Positions 46,909 through 58,966 of a stretch of 64,000 nt of DNA are shown here, in pieces; the stretch's first letter is position 1; every line of letters starts with the position of its first letter. The notes beneath the pieces are model-generated. The model did not search any database, had not been told where the DNA came from, and worked only from the letters and a program-made list of their open reading frames with translations. The DNA is from Deltaproteobacteria bacterium (GTDB lineage Bacteria > Desulfobacterota_D > UBA1144 > Nemesobacterales > Nemesobacteraceae). Where the stretch lies: the NCBI GenBank assembly GCA_029262295.1, contig JAJCZR010000065.1:1-64000 (forward strand), written 5' to 3'. The position numbers were made by a program, and so were the translations under genes.

Positions 46909-47058
46909 ATGAAAAGAACTTATCAACCGCATGTTATAAAAAGATTAAGAAAGCATGGGTTTCGTGCCAGATTAAAAACAAAAGGCGGAAGAAACTTACT
47001 AAAAAGAAGAATTGCCAAAGGCAGATACAGCCTGGCAGTGGAGAAATGGAAAAAATAA
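46909..47058 (+). CDS. rpmH: 50S ribosomal protein L34, absent from ORF track
   Basis: Own translation [49 protein letters not shown]. Confidence 0.97.
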
Positions 47059-47399
47059 ACCATTTTTCAAATCAATCCTTTCCAAAAAATCTTAGAATAA
47101 TTAAATCTGATCATTTTAAACAAATATTTAAGTCTGGAAGAAAAATCTATTCTGCAAATTTTGTTATTTACGTATTATCCAATCAACTTGATTTCCCGAG
47201 AATCGGTATATCCGTTGGAAGAAGAGTCTCCACAAAAGCAACTGATAGAAATAAAATCAAAAGGCTTATAAGGGAAGTTTTTAGAACAAACAAAAATATT
47301 TTTGATAAAAATGATATAGTTTTAGTAGTGAAAAATAATGTTAAAGATGTAAAGGGCAAAGATTTATTCGAGGAAATAAAAAAAGCGTTGAGAAAGTAA
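47046..47399 (+). CDS. rnpA: ribonuclease P protein component
   Basis: [27 protein letters not shown]...[32 protein letters not shown] 47046 overlaps rpmH by 13 nt. Confidence 0.93.
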
Positions 47400-47401
47400 A
47401 A

Positions 47402-47635
47402 TTGATATTGGATAGGATTATTTCAAAAATTACGATTTCAATAATAAAAGCATATAAGGCTTTTATCTCACCTATTTTACCATTTAGTTGTAGATTTCAT
47501 CCCAGCTGCTCTGCATATACCATTGAGGCAATTAAAATTCATGGATCTTTTCGAGGCCTTCAGATGGGGGTTAAAAGGTTATTTAAGTGTCACCCTTTTA
47601 ATAAAGGGGGTTACGATCCAGTAAAAAAAGAGTAA
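47402..47635 (+). CDS. yidD: membrane protein insertion efficiency factor YidD (TTG start)
   Basis: IIKAYKAFISPILPFSCRFHPSCSAYTIEAIKIHGSFRGLQMGVKRLFKCHPFNKGGYDPV. Confidence 0.97.
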   Translation: MILDRIISKITISIIKAYKAFISPILPFSCRFHPSCSAYTIEAIKIHGSFRGLQMGVKRLFKCHPFNKGGYDPVKKE

Positions 47636-47710: not shown

Positions 47711-49558
47711 ATGTTACTCGATATTGCAAAATTATTGCTCCAAAAAAATCTGGTTAATTACCAGAACATAAAAAATGTTCTCGAGAAGAACGATAGTATC
47801 ACTATCAAAAGCTTTAAAGACTCTTTAATAAGCTCGGGACTTATTGACAGAAATGTTCTTGAAGACCAGATTAGAAGAAACTTCGGGGCAAACATTGAAG
47901 ATATAAAAAATATTGAGATTGATAAAGAAATACTTCAGCACATAAGAAAAGAAACGGCTGCAGGACATTTGGTTTTACCATTAAGGATATCAGACTCAAA
48001 GCTTGTTGTTGCAATGGCTGATCCATCCGACCTTTTTTTACTTGATCAACTTGGATTTGAATCAGGCCTTGGAATTACCCCTGTGATGGCTTCAAAGGAA
48101 ACTATCAGAAATGCCGTTATAAAAAATTATAAAATTGATTTTAATGATCAGCATGTCGAAATTGAGTCACTCGACTTTTCAAATTCAACTGAAAATATTA
48201 TAAGTGAGCTAAAAGAGTACGAGAATAATGATGGAAATGGACATGCGAGTGAAACTTCACACACAGAAACAACTGAGAAAATTGAAGAACCAATAACGCA
48301 GCCAAAACCAGAAATAGAAGCTGGAAAAAATATTGAAAGTTCAAACAGTCATGAAATAGCTTTAGGGTTAGAACCTAAAATAGATGGCGCTGAAGAAGCA
48401 CAAAGCTCACCATCAAATGCTGAAAAAACTGTTGGTTCTGAATTCGCCCCTTTTAAAAGCTCTCTTTCAGAAAGCACCTCTGAAAATATTGAGATTGAAA
48501 GAAACCCTGAAGTTCTGGAAAACAGATCACAAAACGACAACTTACAGGATTTAGCTAAGCAACCAATAGATGATGATATTATCCTGCTTGACGATAAAGT
48601 CGCTGAAAAAGAAAAAAATGATTTAAATAATTCAAATCCATTTACAAGTGCTCTCAATAAAGACGAACTGATTCCTGAGGTAACTGAAGAGCTAACCCCC
48701 TTTGTTCGTGAAGAGCAACCACTGCAGGAAGGGGAAGTTGAAGTTGAACAGCTCAGTGAAGAAAAAGAGCCTTCAGATAATAACCAGTCAAACCTGTTTA
48801 CAAGTGCTGTATCAACAACAAAGGAAATAAATGATAATAAACCTCTTGAAGAAGTAACAGAAGATCTCTCCCCCATTCTTCATAAAAATGAAGCTTTTCA
48901 TAAAGAAGAATCTGAATATAAAGAAATTGAAGAGCTAAAAGCAGATGAAATTATTTCTGAACCCATTAGTAAGGAATCAAACCCTTTTGCAAGCCCAATA
49001 AAAAAGGATCCCGAAAACAACCTTGATGAAATAAGTGATGGCCCTTTTGTAGAAAAAAACCCTTTTGATCTTGCTCCTGATACTGTATTAACAAATACCA
49101 TCGATGAATCAACCGAACAAATTCTGGAAAAAGAGCCTATAAAAGATCAAATTGATCTTACAAAAGATGAGCTTCCAAAAGCTGCCCCTGAAGATATTAA
49201 TATTTTAATAGTTGATAAAAGCGTCACTATGCAAAGGGTAATGACGCAAACACTTGAGAAAATAGGCTACAATGTCGTAAACTCAGATAATGCTATTGAT
49301 GCAATATCCAAGATAAATAACAGTAAGCCTGATCTGATTGTAATAGATATTAAACTTCCACACATGGATGGTTATCAGCTTTGTAAGACAATAAAGAAAA
49401 ATGCTGATACAAAAGATATACCGATAGTTATGCTTTCTGGAAAAGATGGTATTTTAGATAAAATGAAGGGTAAAATGGCTGGGGCCAATGCATATATTAC
49501 AAAACCTTTTAAACCAAACCGATTAACATCCATAATTGAAGAACTAACCTCAAACTAG
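47711..49558 (+). CDS. fusion of N-terminal MshEN (PilB/GspE N-domain-like) and C-terminal PilG-like receiver with long acidic repeat linker
   Basis: N-term SGLIDRNVLEDQIRRNFGANIEDI...LVVAMADPSDLFLLDQLGFESG; C-term ILIVDKSVTMQRVMTQTLEKIGYNVV...VIDIKLPHMDGYQLCKTIKKN...MLSGKDGILDKMKGKMAGANAYITKPF. Confidence 0.82.
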   Translation: MLLDIAKLLLQKNLVNYQNIKNVLEKNDSITIKSFKDSLISSGLIDRNVLEDQIRRNFGANIEDIKNIEIDKEILQHIRKETAAGHLVLPLRISDSKLVVAMADPSDLFLLDQLGFESGLGITPVMASKETIRNAVIKNYKIDFNDQHVEIESLDFSNSTENIISELKEYENNDGNGHASETSHTETTEKIEEPITQPKPEIEAGKNIESSNSHEIALGLEPKIDGAEEAQSSPSNAEKTVGSEFAPFKSSLSESTSENIEIERNPEVLENRSQNDNLQDLAKQPIDDDIILLDDKVAEKEKNDLNNSNPFTSALNKDELIPEVTEELTPFVREEQPLQEGEVEVEQLSEEKEPSDNNQSNLFTSAVSTTKEINDNKPLEEVTEDLSPILHKNEAFHKEESEYKEIEELKADEIISEPISKESNPFASPIKKDPENNLDEISDGPFVEKNPFDLAPDTVLTNTIDESTEQILEKEPIKDQIDLTKDELPKAAPEDINILIVDKSVTMQRVMTQTLEKIGYNVVNSDNAIDAISKINNSKPDLIVIDIKLPHMDGYQLCKTIKKNADTKDIPIVMLSGKDGILDKMKGKMAGANAYITKPFKPNRLTSIIEELTSN

Positions 49559-49818
49559 TACTTAATAATCTTTTATCTTTTTCACCAAACCCTTAGAAGT
49601 TTTAAAAATTAATCTTAAAGACAAATTAACATCGAAAACAACTTTTATTATTTATATCCATTATTTTCGTGTATATTTCTCCTTTCAAAATTCTATCTAT
49701 AACTTTACTCTGAAAGATTTTCGTAAATGTTGTGAGGAGAAACACAAAGACCGGCGCAATTTCCATAGTGCTTTTTTCACTTTATTACCTCAACGCTTAA
49801 ACACAGGAACCCCTTTAA

Positions 49819-51507
49819 ATGAACAATAGCAGCCTTAAAAAAAATTATATTCTGTTTTTAGTGCTTTCCACAATTATTATATTTGGTTACTCATTCTTTT
49901 TTTATAAACCTGCGCCCAAAAAACCAATAGCAGAAAAAACAACTGAGCAACCGGTTATCAATCCCAGGCTTGAAGAGATTAATGAGATTGAAGAAATAAA
50001 TATCAATCCGATTGATAATACACCTGAGGCAAAAAAGCTTGATAGCAATTATTTAAGTAAGACAATTACGGTTGAAACAAAAAAGTATATTGCAAAGATC
50101 GATACACTTGGTGGAAGAATAGTTGAGTTTGAATTAAAGGGTTTCGACGATACAACTGCAGAGAATTCACCGCAAGTAAAAGTGGTGGATGAATCAAAAA
50201 ATTCTTTTCACAACATCTTGAGATTGACAGGTGTGGATGTGCCGCCAAGAATTCCCTACAACTATAATGGTAACGAGTTTATAAATGTTGATTCTGAAAG
50301 TTTTAATCTTAACATGGCATGGAATAGCAGCTCTGGTGTAACTGTCAAAAAAACTATCAGATTTTTTGACTCTGAATACTTTATTGAAGAAAATTTTGAG
50401 GTTGAAAACAACACAGCAGCCACGATTGAAGAAAAACTTTATATAAGCTGGTTAAACAGGGTTAATGAAAGCAGCGATACAGCCAGCAACTACAAGTTTG
50501 TCTCAATGGTTGATAATGATGTCGACCGAATAAAAAAGCCTCCAAAAGAGCCCGAAAACTTTAAAGGCACAATCAACTGGTTCGGTTTTTCAGGCAAATA
50601 TTTTTTCAATGCCTTTTTGCCTGAAATAGGTGGCTCATCAAACCTTAATGTTGAAAAAACAAGCGAAAAGGGTTTTGTTAAGTCAACTTTTTCCTATCCG
50701 TCAAAACAAATAACTTCTGGCAACAGCTCACAGAAAAAATGGAGAATGTACCTGGGCCCCAAAAACAAAGAGGATCTTGTCCGCGCTGGTTATAACCTTG
50801 AAGAATCAATCGACTATGGATATGCAGGAGTGCTCACAAAGGTTGCTGTGGGCGTACTTAAATTTGTAAACAAATACATCAAAAACTATGGTGTATCAAT
50901 TATAATAACCACCATTTTTCTTCGTCTGATCTTTTTACCCCTTACAGTAAAAAGCATGAGGTCAATGAAAGAAGTTCAGATGAAAATGCAGGCATTAAAA
51001 CCAAAAATTAATGCCCTAAAAGAAAAATATAAAGACGACAAACAAACCCAGCAAACTGAAATGATGAAGCTTTATTCAAGCAACGGTGTTAACCCACTTA
51101 GTAGCCTGGGTGGATGCCTTCCACTTCTACTTCAGTTTCCGGTGTTTATTGCACTTTACTTTGCACTTTTATATTCGATAGATCTTCGTCATACACCTTT
51201 TCTATGGATAAATGATTTGTCGGAACCTGAACATCTATTCGATATTCTTGGAATTCCATTCAGGATACTGCCATTACTAATGGGTGTTTCGTGGTTTTTC
51301 TCACAGAAACTTACACCTACCACGGCACCTGGAAGCGAAACTATGCAACTGCAGATGAAAATGATGCAATTTATGCCTATAATATTTACGGTTATGTTTT
51401 GGGGATTACCATCTGGTTTGATACTATATTGGACGGTAAGCAATATCATATCAATTGGGCAACAACTTTATATTAACCGCGGAACTACCATACAGACAGG
51501 AGGATAA
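49819..51507 (+). CDS. yidC: membrane protein insertase YidC
   Basis: VSIIITTIFLRLIFLPLTVKSMRSMKEVQMKMQALKPKINALKEKYKDDKQTQQTEMMKLY; GGCLPLLLQFPVFIALYFAL. Confidence 0.97.
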   Translation: MNNSSLKKNYILFLVLSTIIIFGYSFFFYKPAPKKPIAEKTTEQPVINPRLEEINEIEEININPIDNTPEAKKLDSNYLSKTITVETKKYIAKIDTLGGRIVEFELKGFDDTTAENSPQVKVVDESKNSFHNILRLTGVDVPPRIPYNYNGNEFINVDSESFNLNMAWNSSSGVTVKKTIRFFDSEYFIEENFEVENNTAATIEEKLYISWLNRVNESSDTASNYKFVSMVDNDVDRIKKPPKEPENFKGTINWFGFSGKYFFNAFLPEIGGSSNLNVEKTSEKGFVKSTFSYPSKQITSGNSSQKKWRMYLGPKNKEDLVRAGYNLEESIDYGYAGVLTKVAVGVLKFVNKYIKNYGVSIIITTIFLRLIFLPLTVKSMRSMKEVQMKMQALKPKINALKEKYKDDKQTQQTEMMKLYSSNGVNPLSSLGGCLPLLLQFPVFIALYFALLYSIDLRHTPFLWINDLSEPEHLFDILGIPFRILPLLMGVSWFFSQKLTPTTAPGSETMQLQMKMMQFMPIIFTVMFWGLPSGLILYWTVSNIISIGQQLYINRGTTIQTGG

Positions 51508-51512
51508 CTAAC

Positions 51513-52169
51513 ATGTCGATAGAACTTGAAAAAGAAGGAAAAACTGTTTCAGAAGCAACAATCAGTGCATGCGAGGAACTTGGAGTAGCAAGAGACGATA
51601 TAGAAGTAGAAGTTTTACAGAAAGGATCCAAAGGCGTTTTGGGAATAGGCAGTAAAAATGCCATAGTAAAAGTAAAAGTTAAGGCTAAAGAAAAAGCTAA
51701 AGAAAAAGGCTCTAGCGAAAAAGGGCAAAAAGCAAAAGAAGCCCTTGAGACACTTCTCAGCCATCTTGTTTCAACGCAAAATGTAAACATTGTTGAATCG
51801 GATAGAAGAATAAAACTTGAAATCAAAGAGACTGAAGATAAAGGCCTTCTAATTGGAAAAGGCGGGGAGATGATAAGGGCCCTTGAGTATATTGTTGGAA
51901 AGATATCATCAAGGAACTGTTCTGACGGAAGGGAAAAAAGAATATCTATTGATGTTGATGGATATAAAAACAGAAGGGAATCAGGGGTTTCAAGAAAAGT
52001 GGTTGATGCCATAAAAAGAGTTAAAAAGACAAATGAACCATATACGCTTGAAAGGCTTTCCTCTTATGAAAGAAGAATTGCTTATATAACAATAAAAAAC
52101 GAAAGTGGTATTAAATACGATACTGTTATAGATGGTAATCATAAAAAGATTATTATTAGCCCGAGTTAA
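51513..52169 (+). CDS. jag: Jag/SpoIIIJ-associated R3H-KH RNA-binding protein
   Basis: Jag-N LGVARDDIEVEVLQKGSKGVLGIGSKNAIVKV; KH GLLIGKGGEMIRALEYIV; R3H region. Confidence 0.93.
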   Translation: MSIELEKEGKTVSEATISACEELGVARDDIEVEVLQKGSKGVLGIGSKNAIVKVKVKAKEKAKEKGSSEKGQKAKEALETLLSHLVSTQNVNIVESDRRIKLEIKETEDKGLLIGKGGEMIRALEYIVGKISSRNCSDGREKRISIDVDGYKNRRESGVSRKVVDAIKRVKKTNEPYTLERLSSYERRIAYITIKNESGIKYDTVIDGNHKKIIISPS

Positions 52170-52934: not shown

Positions 52935-54656
52935 TTATTTTCTAGCACTAAATTTGATACCAGATTCATTTCTGTCCCAGGTATTGTCTGTTATTTCTTT
53001 GATTTCAGCAACTTTAACCTTTTGAGTGGCAGTCATTGGAAAACCATCTTCAAACACCTCAATAAATCTTGGCACCATGGCAACCATTACCCTTTCTGCC
53101 ATCCATTTACAAAACTCAATAGGATCGAAGTTTTCACCTTTCTTTGTAGTTACGCAAAGTTTAATTTCATCATCTGAAACATTCGGGAGCCTTATACCAA
53201 CTGCAATAGCTTCCTGGATTGCTGGATACTGCATAGCTTCATCACTAACAGCAACGGGGTCAACATTTTCACCTGAAACCCTGATTCTGCTGAAACGTCC
53301 TACAAAATAAAATCTTCCATCAATTCCTTTTGCAAATATATCGTCAGAGTTAAAAAAGCCTTCATCATCAAAAGCTTCATTTGTTCTTTTTTCATCTTTA
53401 AAATACTCATTTAGAGTTGTGTTTGGAACAAGTGGTTTAACAAAAAGAAGACCTTTTGCATCATCAGGAGGAGTAATATCGTCAGTTGAATCCCAAAAAG
53501 GCCTTACAACATCATCAATATCATCAGGATTTCTGAGCTCCACGTAGTAACCTTCCATTGGGAAACCAGATGATCCGGGCCTGTGGTCTTCAGGGTCTTT
53601 CCAAAGGACCATACCCATCTCAGTTGAACCATATCCATCTATTACCCTCACACCAAACCTTTTCTGAAATTCCACAAGGTTTCTGGGGGCAGGAGAACCA
53701 AGCATTATTCTTACTTTGTGTTTCTGGTCCCACTCAGATTCTGGGGCTGCCCAGAGATATTCTGCAACCGCACCAAGCATATTCACTCCTGTTGCACCAC
53801 AATTCGCCGCCCATTTCCAAAAATTAGAAGCTGAAAAACGTGGAAAGAATACAGCCGTTGCCCCACTTCCCATTGCACTGAAAAGACACATAACCTGTGC
53901 ATTGGCATGGCCAAGTGAAAGTATACTCATAAGAGTATCTTCACTCCTTACACCCTGCTGCTGAAGATAGGCGCGCACTGTCATAAGAACCCCGCCGTGA
54001 TCCCTTGCCACACCTTTGGGCATACCAGTAGTTCCGGATGTAAACATACATCTCTCCATATCTGATACAGATATCTTCACTCCAGGGTTGGAAGCATCAT
54101 TTCCGTCAAAAGCAGAAAATGGAAGGGTTTTAATATCACCTATTTTTTCAGGTGGATTATCCGAAGTTACAAAAATTACTTCGAGGTTTTCAAGGTCAGT
54201 GGCTATATCCTGAATAAAAGGAACACTTCCTTCATCAATAATAAGCGCCTTCATATCAGAATAGTTAATTACGTATGCTAACCTTTCACCTTTTTCATCT
54301 TTGTTTATAGGCACTTGCACTGCGCCTGATTTATGAATAGCAATGATTGAAACAACATACTGTGAGCAGTTGAGCATATACATACCAACTTTTTCACCTT
54401 TTTTAACCCCAAAGTCTTTGATTAGGCCATTTGATATTTTGTTTGCCCATTCATTTGTTTCTTTATAAGTGTAGCTTTCAATAATATTTCCATCGGGATC
54501 ACCAACTTTATACATTACTTTGTCTGGAAACATCTCTGCACCTTTTTCAAGGCATTTTGTAATTGGTTCCCATTTTGATGTATCTTCAAAATTTCCAAAG
54601 GGAAGAGTCCCTTCTCCAAGATAGGCTGTGTCACGTGGTTTGAATAGTAAACGCAT
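52935..54656 (-). CDS. AMP-dependent acyl-CoA synthetase/ligase, paralog 1
   Basis: MFTSGTTGMPKGV; DGYGSTEMGMVLWKDPEDHRPGSSGFP; FVGRFSRIRVSGENVDP. Confidence 0.92.
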   Translation of the reverse strand: MRLLFKPRDTAYLGEGTLPFGNFEDTSKWEPITKCLEKGAEMFPDKVMYKVGDPDGNIIESYTYKETNEWANKISNGLIKDFGVKKGEKVGMYMLNCSQYVVSIIAIHKSGAVQVPINKDEKGERLAYVINYSDMKALIIDEGSVPFIQDIATDLENLEVIFVTSDNPPEKIGDIKTLPFSAFDGNDASNPGVKISVSDMERCMFTSGTTGMPKGVARDHGGVLMTVRAYLQQQGVRSEDTLMSILSLGHANAQVMCLFSAMGSGATAVFFPRFSASNFWKWAANCGATGVNMLGAVAEYLWAAPESEWDQKHKVRIMLGSPAPRNLVEFQKRFGVRVIDGYGSTEMGMVLWKDPEDHRPGSSGFPMEGYYVELRNPDDIDDVVRPFWDSTDDITPPDDAKGLLFVKPLVPNTTLNEYFKDEKRTNEAFDDEGFFNSDDIFAKGIDGRFYFVGRFSRIRVSGENVDPVAVSDEAMQYPAIQEAIAVGIRLPNVSDDEIKLCVTTKKGENFDPIEFCKWMAERVMVAMVPRFIEVFEDGFPMTATQKVKVAEIKEITDNTWDRNESGIKFSARK

Positions 54657-57247: not shown

Positions 57248-58966
57248 CTATTTTCTAGATTTTAATTTCAAATCTGTATTATTTCTATCCCATGTGTTAT
57301 CGGATCTTCTTTTAAGCTCCGACACAGCTATTTTTTGTGTGGAAGTAACAGGGTAGTTTTCATAAATTTCAATAAACCTGGGCACCATTGCCACCATTAC
57401 TTTTCTTGCCATCCACTCGCTAAAATCAACGGGGTCAAAGTCTTCACCTTTTTTAAGAATTATATTAAGTTTAATTTCATCATCGGAAACATTTGGAAGC
57501 CTTATTCCAACTGCCATTGCATCATGAATTGCTGGATATCCAAGTGCCAAATCTGCTATTGCAACTGGATCCACATTTTCACCCGAAACCCTGATTCTGC
57601 TGTACCTTCCCTGAAAGTAATATCTGCCGTCTATACCTACTGCAAAAAGATCATCTGAATTAAAAAAACCATCCTGATCAAAAGCCTCACTGGTTCTTTT
57701 CTCATCTTTGAAATACTCGTTAAGAGTAGTGTGCGGAACAAGCGGCCTTATAAAAAGAAGCCCCTTTGCTTCTTCAGGAGGAGTAGGCTCATTATCAGGA
57801 TCCCAAAAATACCTTACGACTTTATCAGTGTTTTCAGGGTCTCTTAACTCTAAATAATATCCCTCAAGCGGAAATCCTGCAGACCCCGGCCTTTCATCTT
57901 CAGGGTCTTTCCAGAGCACCATTCCCATCTCTGTTGATCCATAGCCTTCCATTACTTTTGTATTAAACCTTTTTTCAAATTCTTCTAAATTCTTTGGAGC
58001 AGGAGCTGCGAGGACAAACCTTATATTATGCTTTTTATCCCACTCAGACTCAGGGGCAGCCCAAACATACTCTCCCACAGCACCAAGCATATTTACACCT
58101 GTAGCGCCAGAATTTGCTGCCCACTTCCAAAACTTTGAAGCTGAAAACTTGGGATAAAAAACGCATGAACATCCTGCGGCAATTGAAGCAAACAGGCAAA
58201 GCACCTGTGCATTTGCATGGCCCAGAGACAAAATAGACATGAGCATATCTTCGCTTCTAAGCCCCTCCTGCTGAATAAAGGAGCGAACAGTCATTATTAC
58301 CCCACCGTGATTTCTTATTACACCTTTTGGTAGACCTGTGGTGCCGGAGGTAAACATGCACCTCTCCATATCCGCAATTGTTACGCCCACACTCGGATTA
58401 AATTTCTCATAGTTATCAAATACAGAAAAAGGTGCTGCATCTATTTCCCCAATTTTTTCTGGCACCTCACCTGATGTTATAAATATGGTTTCAAGGTTTT
58501 TGAGTTTGTCTGATATTTCAAGAATATAAGGAAGGCTTTCTTTATCAACTATAAGTGCTTTCACCTCAGAATAATTTATTACATAGGCAAGCCTTTCGCC
58601 TTTTTCATCCTTATTAATCGGCACCTGCACACCACCCGTTTTATGGACTGCAATTATTGATAGCACATACTCAGAGCAGTTGAGCATATACATACCAACT
58701 TTATCACCTTTTTTTATATCAAAAGCCTTGATTAAACCACTTGCAATCTGATTTGCCCTTTGATTGGTCTCGCAGTAGGTATGGCTTTCAACAATATTCC
58801 CTTCGCTGTCAGCCATTTTAAACATCAATCTGTCGGGATAAGCATCCGCTCCCTTTTCAAGGTATCTTGTGATTGGAAGCCAGCTGTTGGTGTTTTCAAA
58901 AGTGCCGTTTGGAATATTTCCCTTTCCAATATATTTTTTATCTCTTGGTTTGAAAAGTAAACGCAT
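57248..58966 (-). CDS. AMP-dependent acyl-CoA synthetase/ligase, paralog 2
   Basis: MFTSGTTGLPKGV; EGYGSTEMGMVLWKDPEDERPGSAGFP; strongly similar to 52935-54656 along full length. Confidence 0.92.
   Translation of the reverse strand: MRLLFKPRDKKYIGKGNIPNGTFENTNSWLPITRYLEKGADAYPDRLMFKMADSEGNIVESHTYCETNQRANQIASGLIKAFDIKKGDKVGMYMLNCSEYVLSIIAVHKTGGVQVPINKDEKGERLAYVINYSEVKALIVDKESLPYILEISDKLKNLETIFITSGEVPEKIGEIDAAPFSVFDNYEKFNPSVGVTIADMERCMFTSGTTGLPKGVIRNHGGVIMTVRSFIQQEGLRSEDMLMSILSLGHANAQVLCLFASIAAGCSCVFYPKFSASKFWKWAANSGATGVNMLGAVGEYVWAAPESEWDKKHNIRFVLAAPAPKNLEEFEKRFNTKVMEGYGSTEMGMVLWKDPEDERPGSAGFPLEGYYLELRDPENTDKVVRYFWDPDNEPTPPEEAKGLLFIRPLVPHTTLNEYFKDEKRTSEAFDQDGFFNSDDLFAVGIDGRYYFQGRYSRIRVSGENVDPVAIADLALGYPAIHDAMAVGIRLPNVSDDEIKLNIILKKGEDFDPVDFSEWMARKVMVAMVPRFIEIYENYPVTSTQKIAVSELKRRSDNTWDRNNTDLKLKSRK

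Follow-up and report, generated by a model that had tools for sequence, protein, structure and literature searches.

The window analysed here, a stretch of bacterial DNA of 64,000 nucleotides, contains an open reading frame whose product joins a domain of the MshEN family to a C-terminal response-regulator receiver (REC) domain through a long acidic linker (Table 1). The frame is preceded by rpmH, rnpA and yidD and followed by yidC and jag. Its exact coordinates and the names of these five neighbours had all been given correctly in an earlier interpretation made from the letters alone (below, the sequence-only reading).

Table 1. Coordinates of the fusion gene, its parts and its neighbours in the window.
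Feature	Position	Strand	Basis
rpmH (context)	46909..47058	+	read from sequence
rnpA (context)	47046..47399	+	read from sequence; orthologues in relatives
yidD (context)	47402..47635	+	survey of yidD-yidC loci
MshEN-linker-REC fusion gene, 615 aa	47711..49558	+	open frame, ATG start; Pfam MshEN and Response_reg; orthologues in 13 relatives
PilB-type N-domain (MshEN, aa 1-145): four-helix N-subdomain and C-subdomain; degenerate c-di-GMP motif, aa 4-27 and 34-57	47711..48145	+	
Short helix after the MshEN domain, aa 160-173 (ENIISELKEYENN)	48188..48229	+	helix in predicted model
Acidic disordered linker, aa 175-489 (~310 aa), 26% D+E, with NPFTS / NLFTS / NPFAS repeats	48233..49177	+	pLDDT <50; composition
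Receiver domain, aa 497-613; CheY D13 position = Lys503; Asp546, Ser576 and Lys598 kept	49199..49549	+	Pfam; residue alignment; Foldseek
Spacer before yidC, 260 bp	49559..49818	+	promoter/terminator scan; spacer comparison
yidC (context)	49819..51507	+	
jag (context)	51513-52169		

The domain search proposed by the sequence-only reading bore out both of its assignments, with hmmscan against Pfam placing the N-terminal part in the MshEN family (PF05157, aa 61-141, 62.5 bits against a cut-off of 23.1) and the C-terminal part in the Response_reg family (PF00072, aa 498-609, 93.8 bits against a cut-off of 30.2). The PilB equivalog model TIGR02538 stretches the N-terminal similarity to aa 5-173, the nearest solved structures in a PDB search are PilB proteins (top match Myxococcus xanthus PilB, 3e-18), and the domain is 29% identical to the PilB of the same genome (E 7e-22). 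AlphaFold2, given an alignment of 13 fusions, predicts helices and strands for the N-domain with a pLDDT mostly of 75-90, models the receiver at about 90 and leaves aa 175-489 disordered. The receiver matches CheY-like receiver domains with Foldseek TM-scores of up to 0.96 and retains the invariants of the REC family. Its resemblance to PilG, as proposed earlier, is a fair description, with REC matches from a Pirellulaceae chemosensory cluster and from Pseudanabaena proteins that we labelled PilG-type by eye, and the type IV pilus flavour of the fusion is likewise supported.

Between the two domains, the helix motif ENIISELKEYENN recurs in 8 of 14 fusions in a pattern search. Within the linker, aa 309-428 (window 48635-48994) contain repeated NPFTS, NLFTS and NPFAS, to which relatives of family f5 add NPFVA and DPFRS; these repeats are possible short binding motifs.

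The order to which the organism belongs was sampled by 44 genomes from 7 families, with the window genome (G000) in family f1. Defined as a REC match with an E value below 1e-29 together with an MshEN match in the same frame, the fusion is present in 14 of these genomes (the window genome, G015, G016, G017, G021, G026, G027, G031, G034, G035, G039, G040, G042 and G043), the G042 copy being counted although a contig end cuts it and its MshEN part is unseen. By our own count from the T2SSE table, the fusion occurs in 13 of the 20 genomes that encode a PilT-type ATPase and in 1 of the 24 others (G043, 59% complete). All 14 sister-genus genomes (f1/g2) are devoid of the fusion, of PilT-type ATPases and of GGDEF proteins. 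From this and the split above we conclude that the gene accompanies type IV pili. Pili in general do not require it, since a PilT-type ATPase occurs without the fusion in seven genomes. The window genome encodes pilB-pilT-pilC-pilS-pilR on one contig (pilC, pilS and pilR named by eye) as well as PilM, two PilZ matches and three GGDEF proteins. A second MshEN protein of 168 aa, which stands alone and has no ATPase domain, is encoded at L095:6641-7147 (G000:C61).

The position of the fusion invites a different interpretation, namely that it is a functional part of the rnpA-yidD-yidC operon that couples signalling to membrane protein insertion. It is co-directional with its neighbours, begins 75 bp downstream of yidD, ends 260 bp upstream of yidC, and is separated from them by no terminator-like site that we could find on the + strand. 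A promoter scan returned fewer sites than in shuffled sequences and none that was convincing in the spacer before yidC, which is not clearly alignable with sister-genus spacers. We nevertheless consider the operon interpretation highly improbable. None of the 13 fusion-bearing relatives carries the fusion beside yidC, and it is absent likewise from the other yidD-yidC loci examined. The survey of these loci that the sequence-only reading had called for showed that, among the other families covered, yidD and yidC are 9-18 bp apart; most sister-genus genomes have a fusion-free gap of 178-195 bp. With no relative carrying the fusion beside yidC and so short a gap in other families, the data do not support a functional link to YidC, and the suggested connection to membrane insertion was rejected because of where the fusion lies in relatives. 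In the sister-genus genome G003, the gap measures 1192 bp and holds an unrelated antisense ORF of 305 aa without a Pfam match (L069:3163-4354); the yidD-yidC site therefore tolerates insertions.

The description of the gene as inserted in a conserved cluster thus holds for this genome and for none of the 13 fusion-bearing relatives, and the fusion lacks the conserved presence that would make it a member of the rnpA-yidD-yidC cluster. The sequence-only reading had named absence from this position in all relatives as an outcome that would count against it; for the position this is what we found, whereas the gene itself is conserved at other sites. Judged from gene order, the place between yidD and yidC appears to be incidental, an accident of rearrangement. 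The yidC setting itself is unimportant, and the case is a caution that a gene within a widely conserved cluster can sit there by chance.

The location of the fusion varies between clades. In 8 of the 13 relatives it is oriented divergently from glnB-glnA, in G026 it lies between glnB and rnc, and in G034 it adjoins rnc; contig ends truncate the loci of G042 and G043, and in G015 neither glnB nor rnc falls within the annotated stretch. The genes ntrC-rnc-glnB-glnA follow one another without a fusion in between in the window genome, four genomes of the sister genus and G020 (family f7). Because G020 and five f1 genomes, the window genome included, keep rnc and glnB adjacent without the fusion, it is equally possible that the gene moved out of this site here or was gained at it in the other clade. 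The REC tree does not place the branch of the window protein and therefore does not decide between a move to yidC and a separate gain there. The window also contains two near-alike acyl-CoA ligase-like genes (52935-54656 and 57248-58966; 573 and 572 aa), separated by about 2.6 kb, and the fusion locus of G026 holds an acyl-CoA ligase-like gene that is 76% identical.

Some MshEN domains sense c-di-GMP through a pair of 24-residue repeats in which Arg, Leu, Gly, Gly, Leu, Leu and Gln are conserved (PMC5013675), and the sequence-only reading had considered c-di-GMP sensing by the fusion. The residues do not support this. The two repeats of the fusion, separated by a 6-residue spacer, keep 1/7 and 2/7 of the key residues (3/14), compared with 4/7 and 7/7 (11/14) in the PilB of the same genome; both Arg are replaced, the first-Gly positions are Ala and Lys, and both Gln are Asn, so that the region fails to qualify as a c-di-GMP motif. 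Single substitutions at the conserved hydrophobic residues of MshE each cut binding more than 10-fold (PMC5013675). On these residues, c-di-GMP binding by the fusion is doubtful. We accordingly regard as improbable a two-input regulator in which MshEN binds c-di-GMP, the receiver takes a phosphoryl group and the two signals are linked, even though the MshEN fold is confirmed, Asp546, Ser576 and Lys598 of the receiver are intact, and the genome encodes the GGDEF proteins and PilZ matches mentioned above. Besides the loss of binding residues, the direct Mg2+ ligand of the receiver is replaced by Lys.

This replacement is the VDK that had been flagged as a damaged acidic pocket. It corresponds to aa 501-503, with Lys503 at the position of CheY D13 (a direct Mg2+ ligand, DD2), while Asp502, Asp546 (in VIDIKLP), Ser576 and Lys598 are present. 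Because DD2 is Lys, the domain departs from a canonical receiver, in which D, DD, T/S and K are all present, at this one of the five residues, and it is a pseudo-receiver under the definition of a receiver fold minus any one of them (PMC12632262). Both acids are kept by 16 of the 17 other receivers of the window genome. Among the fusions, the acid pair is intact in four (G015, G017, G026 and G034), whereas Phe, Val, His or Asn occupies the D13 position in the nine of family f3, and G039 and G042 additionally have Glu in place of the phosphorylated Asp (D57E). The YidC tree groups f1 with f6/f7 and f3 with f4/f5/f2, with support of only 81-82%; on this grouping, the acid was probably lost separately in the f1 and f3 lineages.

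The same position and residue are altered in constitutively active CheY, in which D13K/Y106W locks the flagellar motor (PMC11528121), and Lys503 might therefore mimic CheY D13K, hold the receiver in an active-like state and send a constitutive signal to the pilus machine. The D57E change in G039 and G042 would fit. However, the D13K and D58E variants of M. xanthus EpsW are inactive rather than activating (PMC4671073), and because of this result a locked-on receiver stays a rival only, despite the match to CheY. The f3 relatives carry Phe, Val, His or Asn and never Lys, and a non-acidic DD2 is simply frequent among pseudo-receivers (about 80%; PMC12632262). We therefore judge a locked-on receiver unlikely.

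In pairwise comparisons among f3 relatives, to which these measurements are confined since the window gene has no close relative, dN/dS was 0.05-0.12 for the degenerate receivers, 0.10-0.27 for MshEN and 0.39-0.91 for the linker. The degenerate receivers of f3 are under strong purifying selection; thus, a receiver that is unable to use Mg2+ normally is still selected in this family.

The fusions of only two of the 13 relatives are followed by chemosensory genes. In G017, the fusion precedes a 192-aa partner and then an intact CheW, and in G026 it precedes the same partner (with one internal stop) and then a CheA spread over three frames. The latter, at L042:9405-11528, comprises H-kinase_dim, HATPase and CheW pieces and is apparently a chemosensory kinase in decay or the product of assembly errors. 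Only 4 of the 44 sampled genomes yielded a CheW, the window genome not among them, in a search whose control gave a signal in 7 of 14 reference genomes. The CheA/CheW pathway that characterizes a Chp/PilG output regulator is accordingly represented by CheW in G017 and by pieces in G026 but was not detected in the window genome. A close REC match in the Pirellulaceae contig L038 lies in an apparent chemosensory cluster of REC, CheW, receptor and CheA (neighbours named by eye). Because of this cluster and the neighbours in G017 and G026, we infer that the fusion family likely arose as a chemosensory (CheA/CheW) output regulator. We also considered that pocket loss tracks kinase loss, since CheA or CheW is adjacent to 2 of the 4 fusions with an intact pocket and to 0 of the 10 degenerate ones, and rejected it, as these cases are too few and non-independent; G015 and G034 have an intact pocket yet no CheW, and the correspondence is therefore not clean.

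The partner belongs to an all-helical family of ~190 aa that is encoded immediately after the fusion in 11 relatives (L043:4411-4989, L047:7473-8048 and 9 further loci), is confined to these 11 fusion-bearing genomes and is absent from the window genome. It has an invariant LLH...NR.S..T..NLY.GW-type motif, no significant Pfam match and, for its helical model, no convincing PDB match. Weak, partial similarity links it to a 218-aa Pirellulaceae protein that adjoins a chemosensory REC. A degenerate CheW was ruled out as its identity (hhalign probability 0.3%).

With the pocket, the c-di-GMP motif, the partner gene and CheW all lost, absent or degraded in the window genome, and with the CheA beside the G026 orthologue broken, the fusion could be a functionless remnant, now in decay, of a chemosensory pathway that has been lost. 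We think this quite improbable because the 615-aa frame is intact, both folds are predicted well, the REC invariants are retained and the equally degenerate f3 receivers are under strong purifying selection.

We favour, with slightly better than even confidence, the interpretation of the fusion as a type IV pilus regulator in which a phosphorylation-independent pseudo-receiver serves as an adaptor for the pilus motor. The ~145-residue copy of the N-domain of the PilB extension motor would dock where PilB's own N-domain docks, on PilM/PilZ-type partners or on the PilB ring, and the long, flexible acidic linker would tether it to the PilG-type receiver. Because no CheW was found in the genome and the Mg2+ ligand is Lys, the receiver would work without regulated Asp phosphorylation and be recognised through its surface. 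Several observations weigh against this adaptor: the receiver keeps its active-site Asp, Ser and Lys, and some residual phosphorylation can persist in receivers with changes in the DD pair (PMC12632262); G015 and G034, with intact pockets, also lack CheW; the selection measured is that of f3 relatives; and seven genomes with a PilT-type ATPase do without the fusion. A bolder version, which we hold to be rather unlikely, is that the PilB-N/receiver adaptor of this order, its kinase lost, twice separately dropped Mg2+-dependent phosphorylation (through Lys in one case and Phe/Val/His/Asn in the other, once with Asp57 to Glu), that the receiver is selected as a constitutively 'read' surface, and that the f1 version is a natural CheY D13K locked-on mutant.

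The fusions form a graded natural series within one family, from an intact pocket beside chemosensory genes to a degenerate pocket without them. This series makes the transition from a phosphorylation-driven pilus regulator to a pseudo-receiver testable, and with it the question whether a stand-alone PilB N-domain can serve as an adaptor for the pilus motor or compete at it.

The pseudo-receiver of M. xanthus FrzS, a protein of type IV pilus motility, is among the Foldseek matches of the fusion receiver. FrzS consists of a receiver plus a coiled coil. Its control of pilus-based motility does not depend on Asp phosphorylation (PMC1974792). The phosphorylated Asp is missing from FrzS but kept in the fusion, which has Lys at DD2 and carries a PilB N-domain copy before a disordered linker. 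The cyanobacterial PATAN-REC regulators PixG, PilG and TaxP2 share with the fusion an N-terminal adaptor and a C-terminal PilG-type receiver, and their adaptor binds PilB (PMC10519157). The fusion has no PATAN domain (no Pfam match at E up to 1) and is thus not a PATAN-REC protein; its adaptor is instead a copy of the PilB N-domain, and its genome yielded no CheW. FrzS as a pseudo-receiver in pilus motility and the PATAN-REC proteins as PilB-binding adaptors are precedents for the adaptor that we propose, which would resemble them in function. Compared with the PilB extension ATPase, with whose N1 domain it shares the MshEN fold, the fusion lacks the ATPase (T2SSE) domain and has a degenerate c-di-GMP motif. 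The MshEN-REC architecture itself is already known, since REC is one of the partner domains with which MshEN has been recorded (Wang et al. 2016, PMC5013675); going by the description in that paper, the same two domains occur in one protein. MshEN is presented there as a c-di-GMP receptor, whereas the fusion has lost most of the binding residues and has an altered receiver pocket, making it a degenerate-pocket variant of that architecture.
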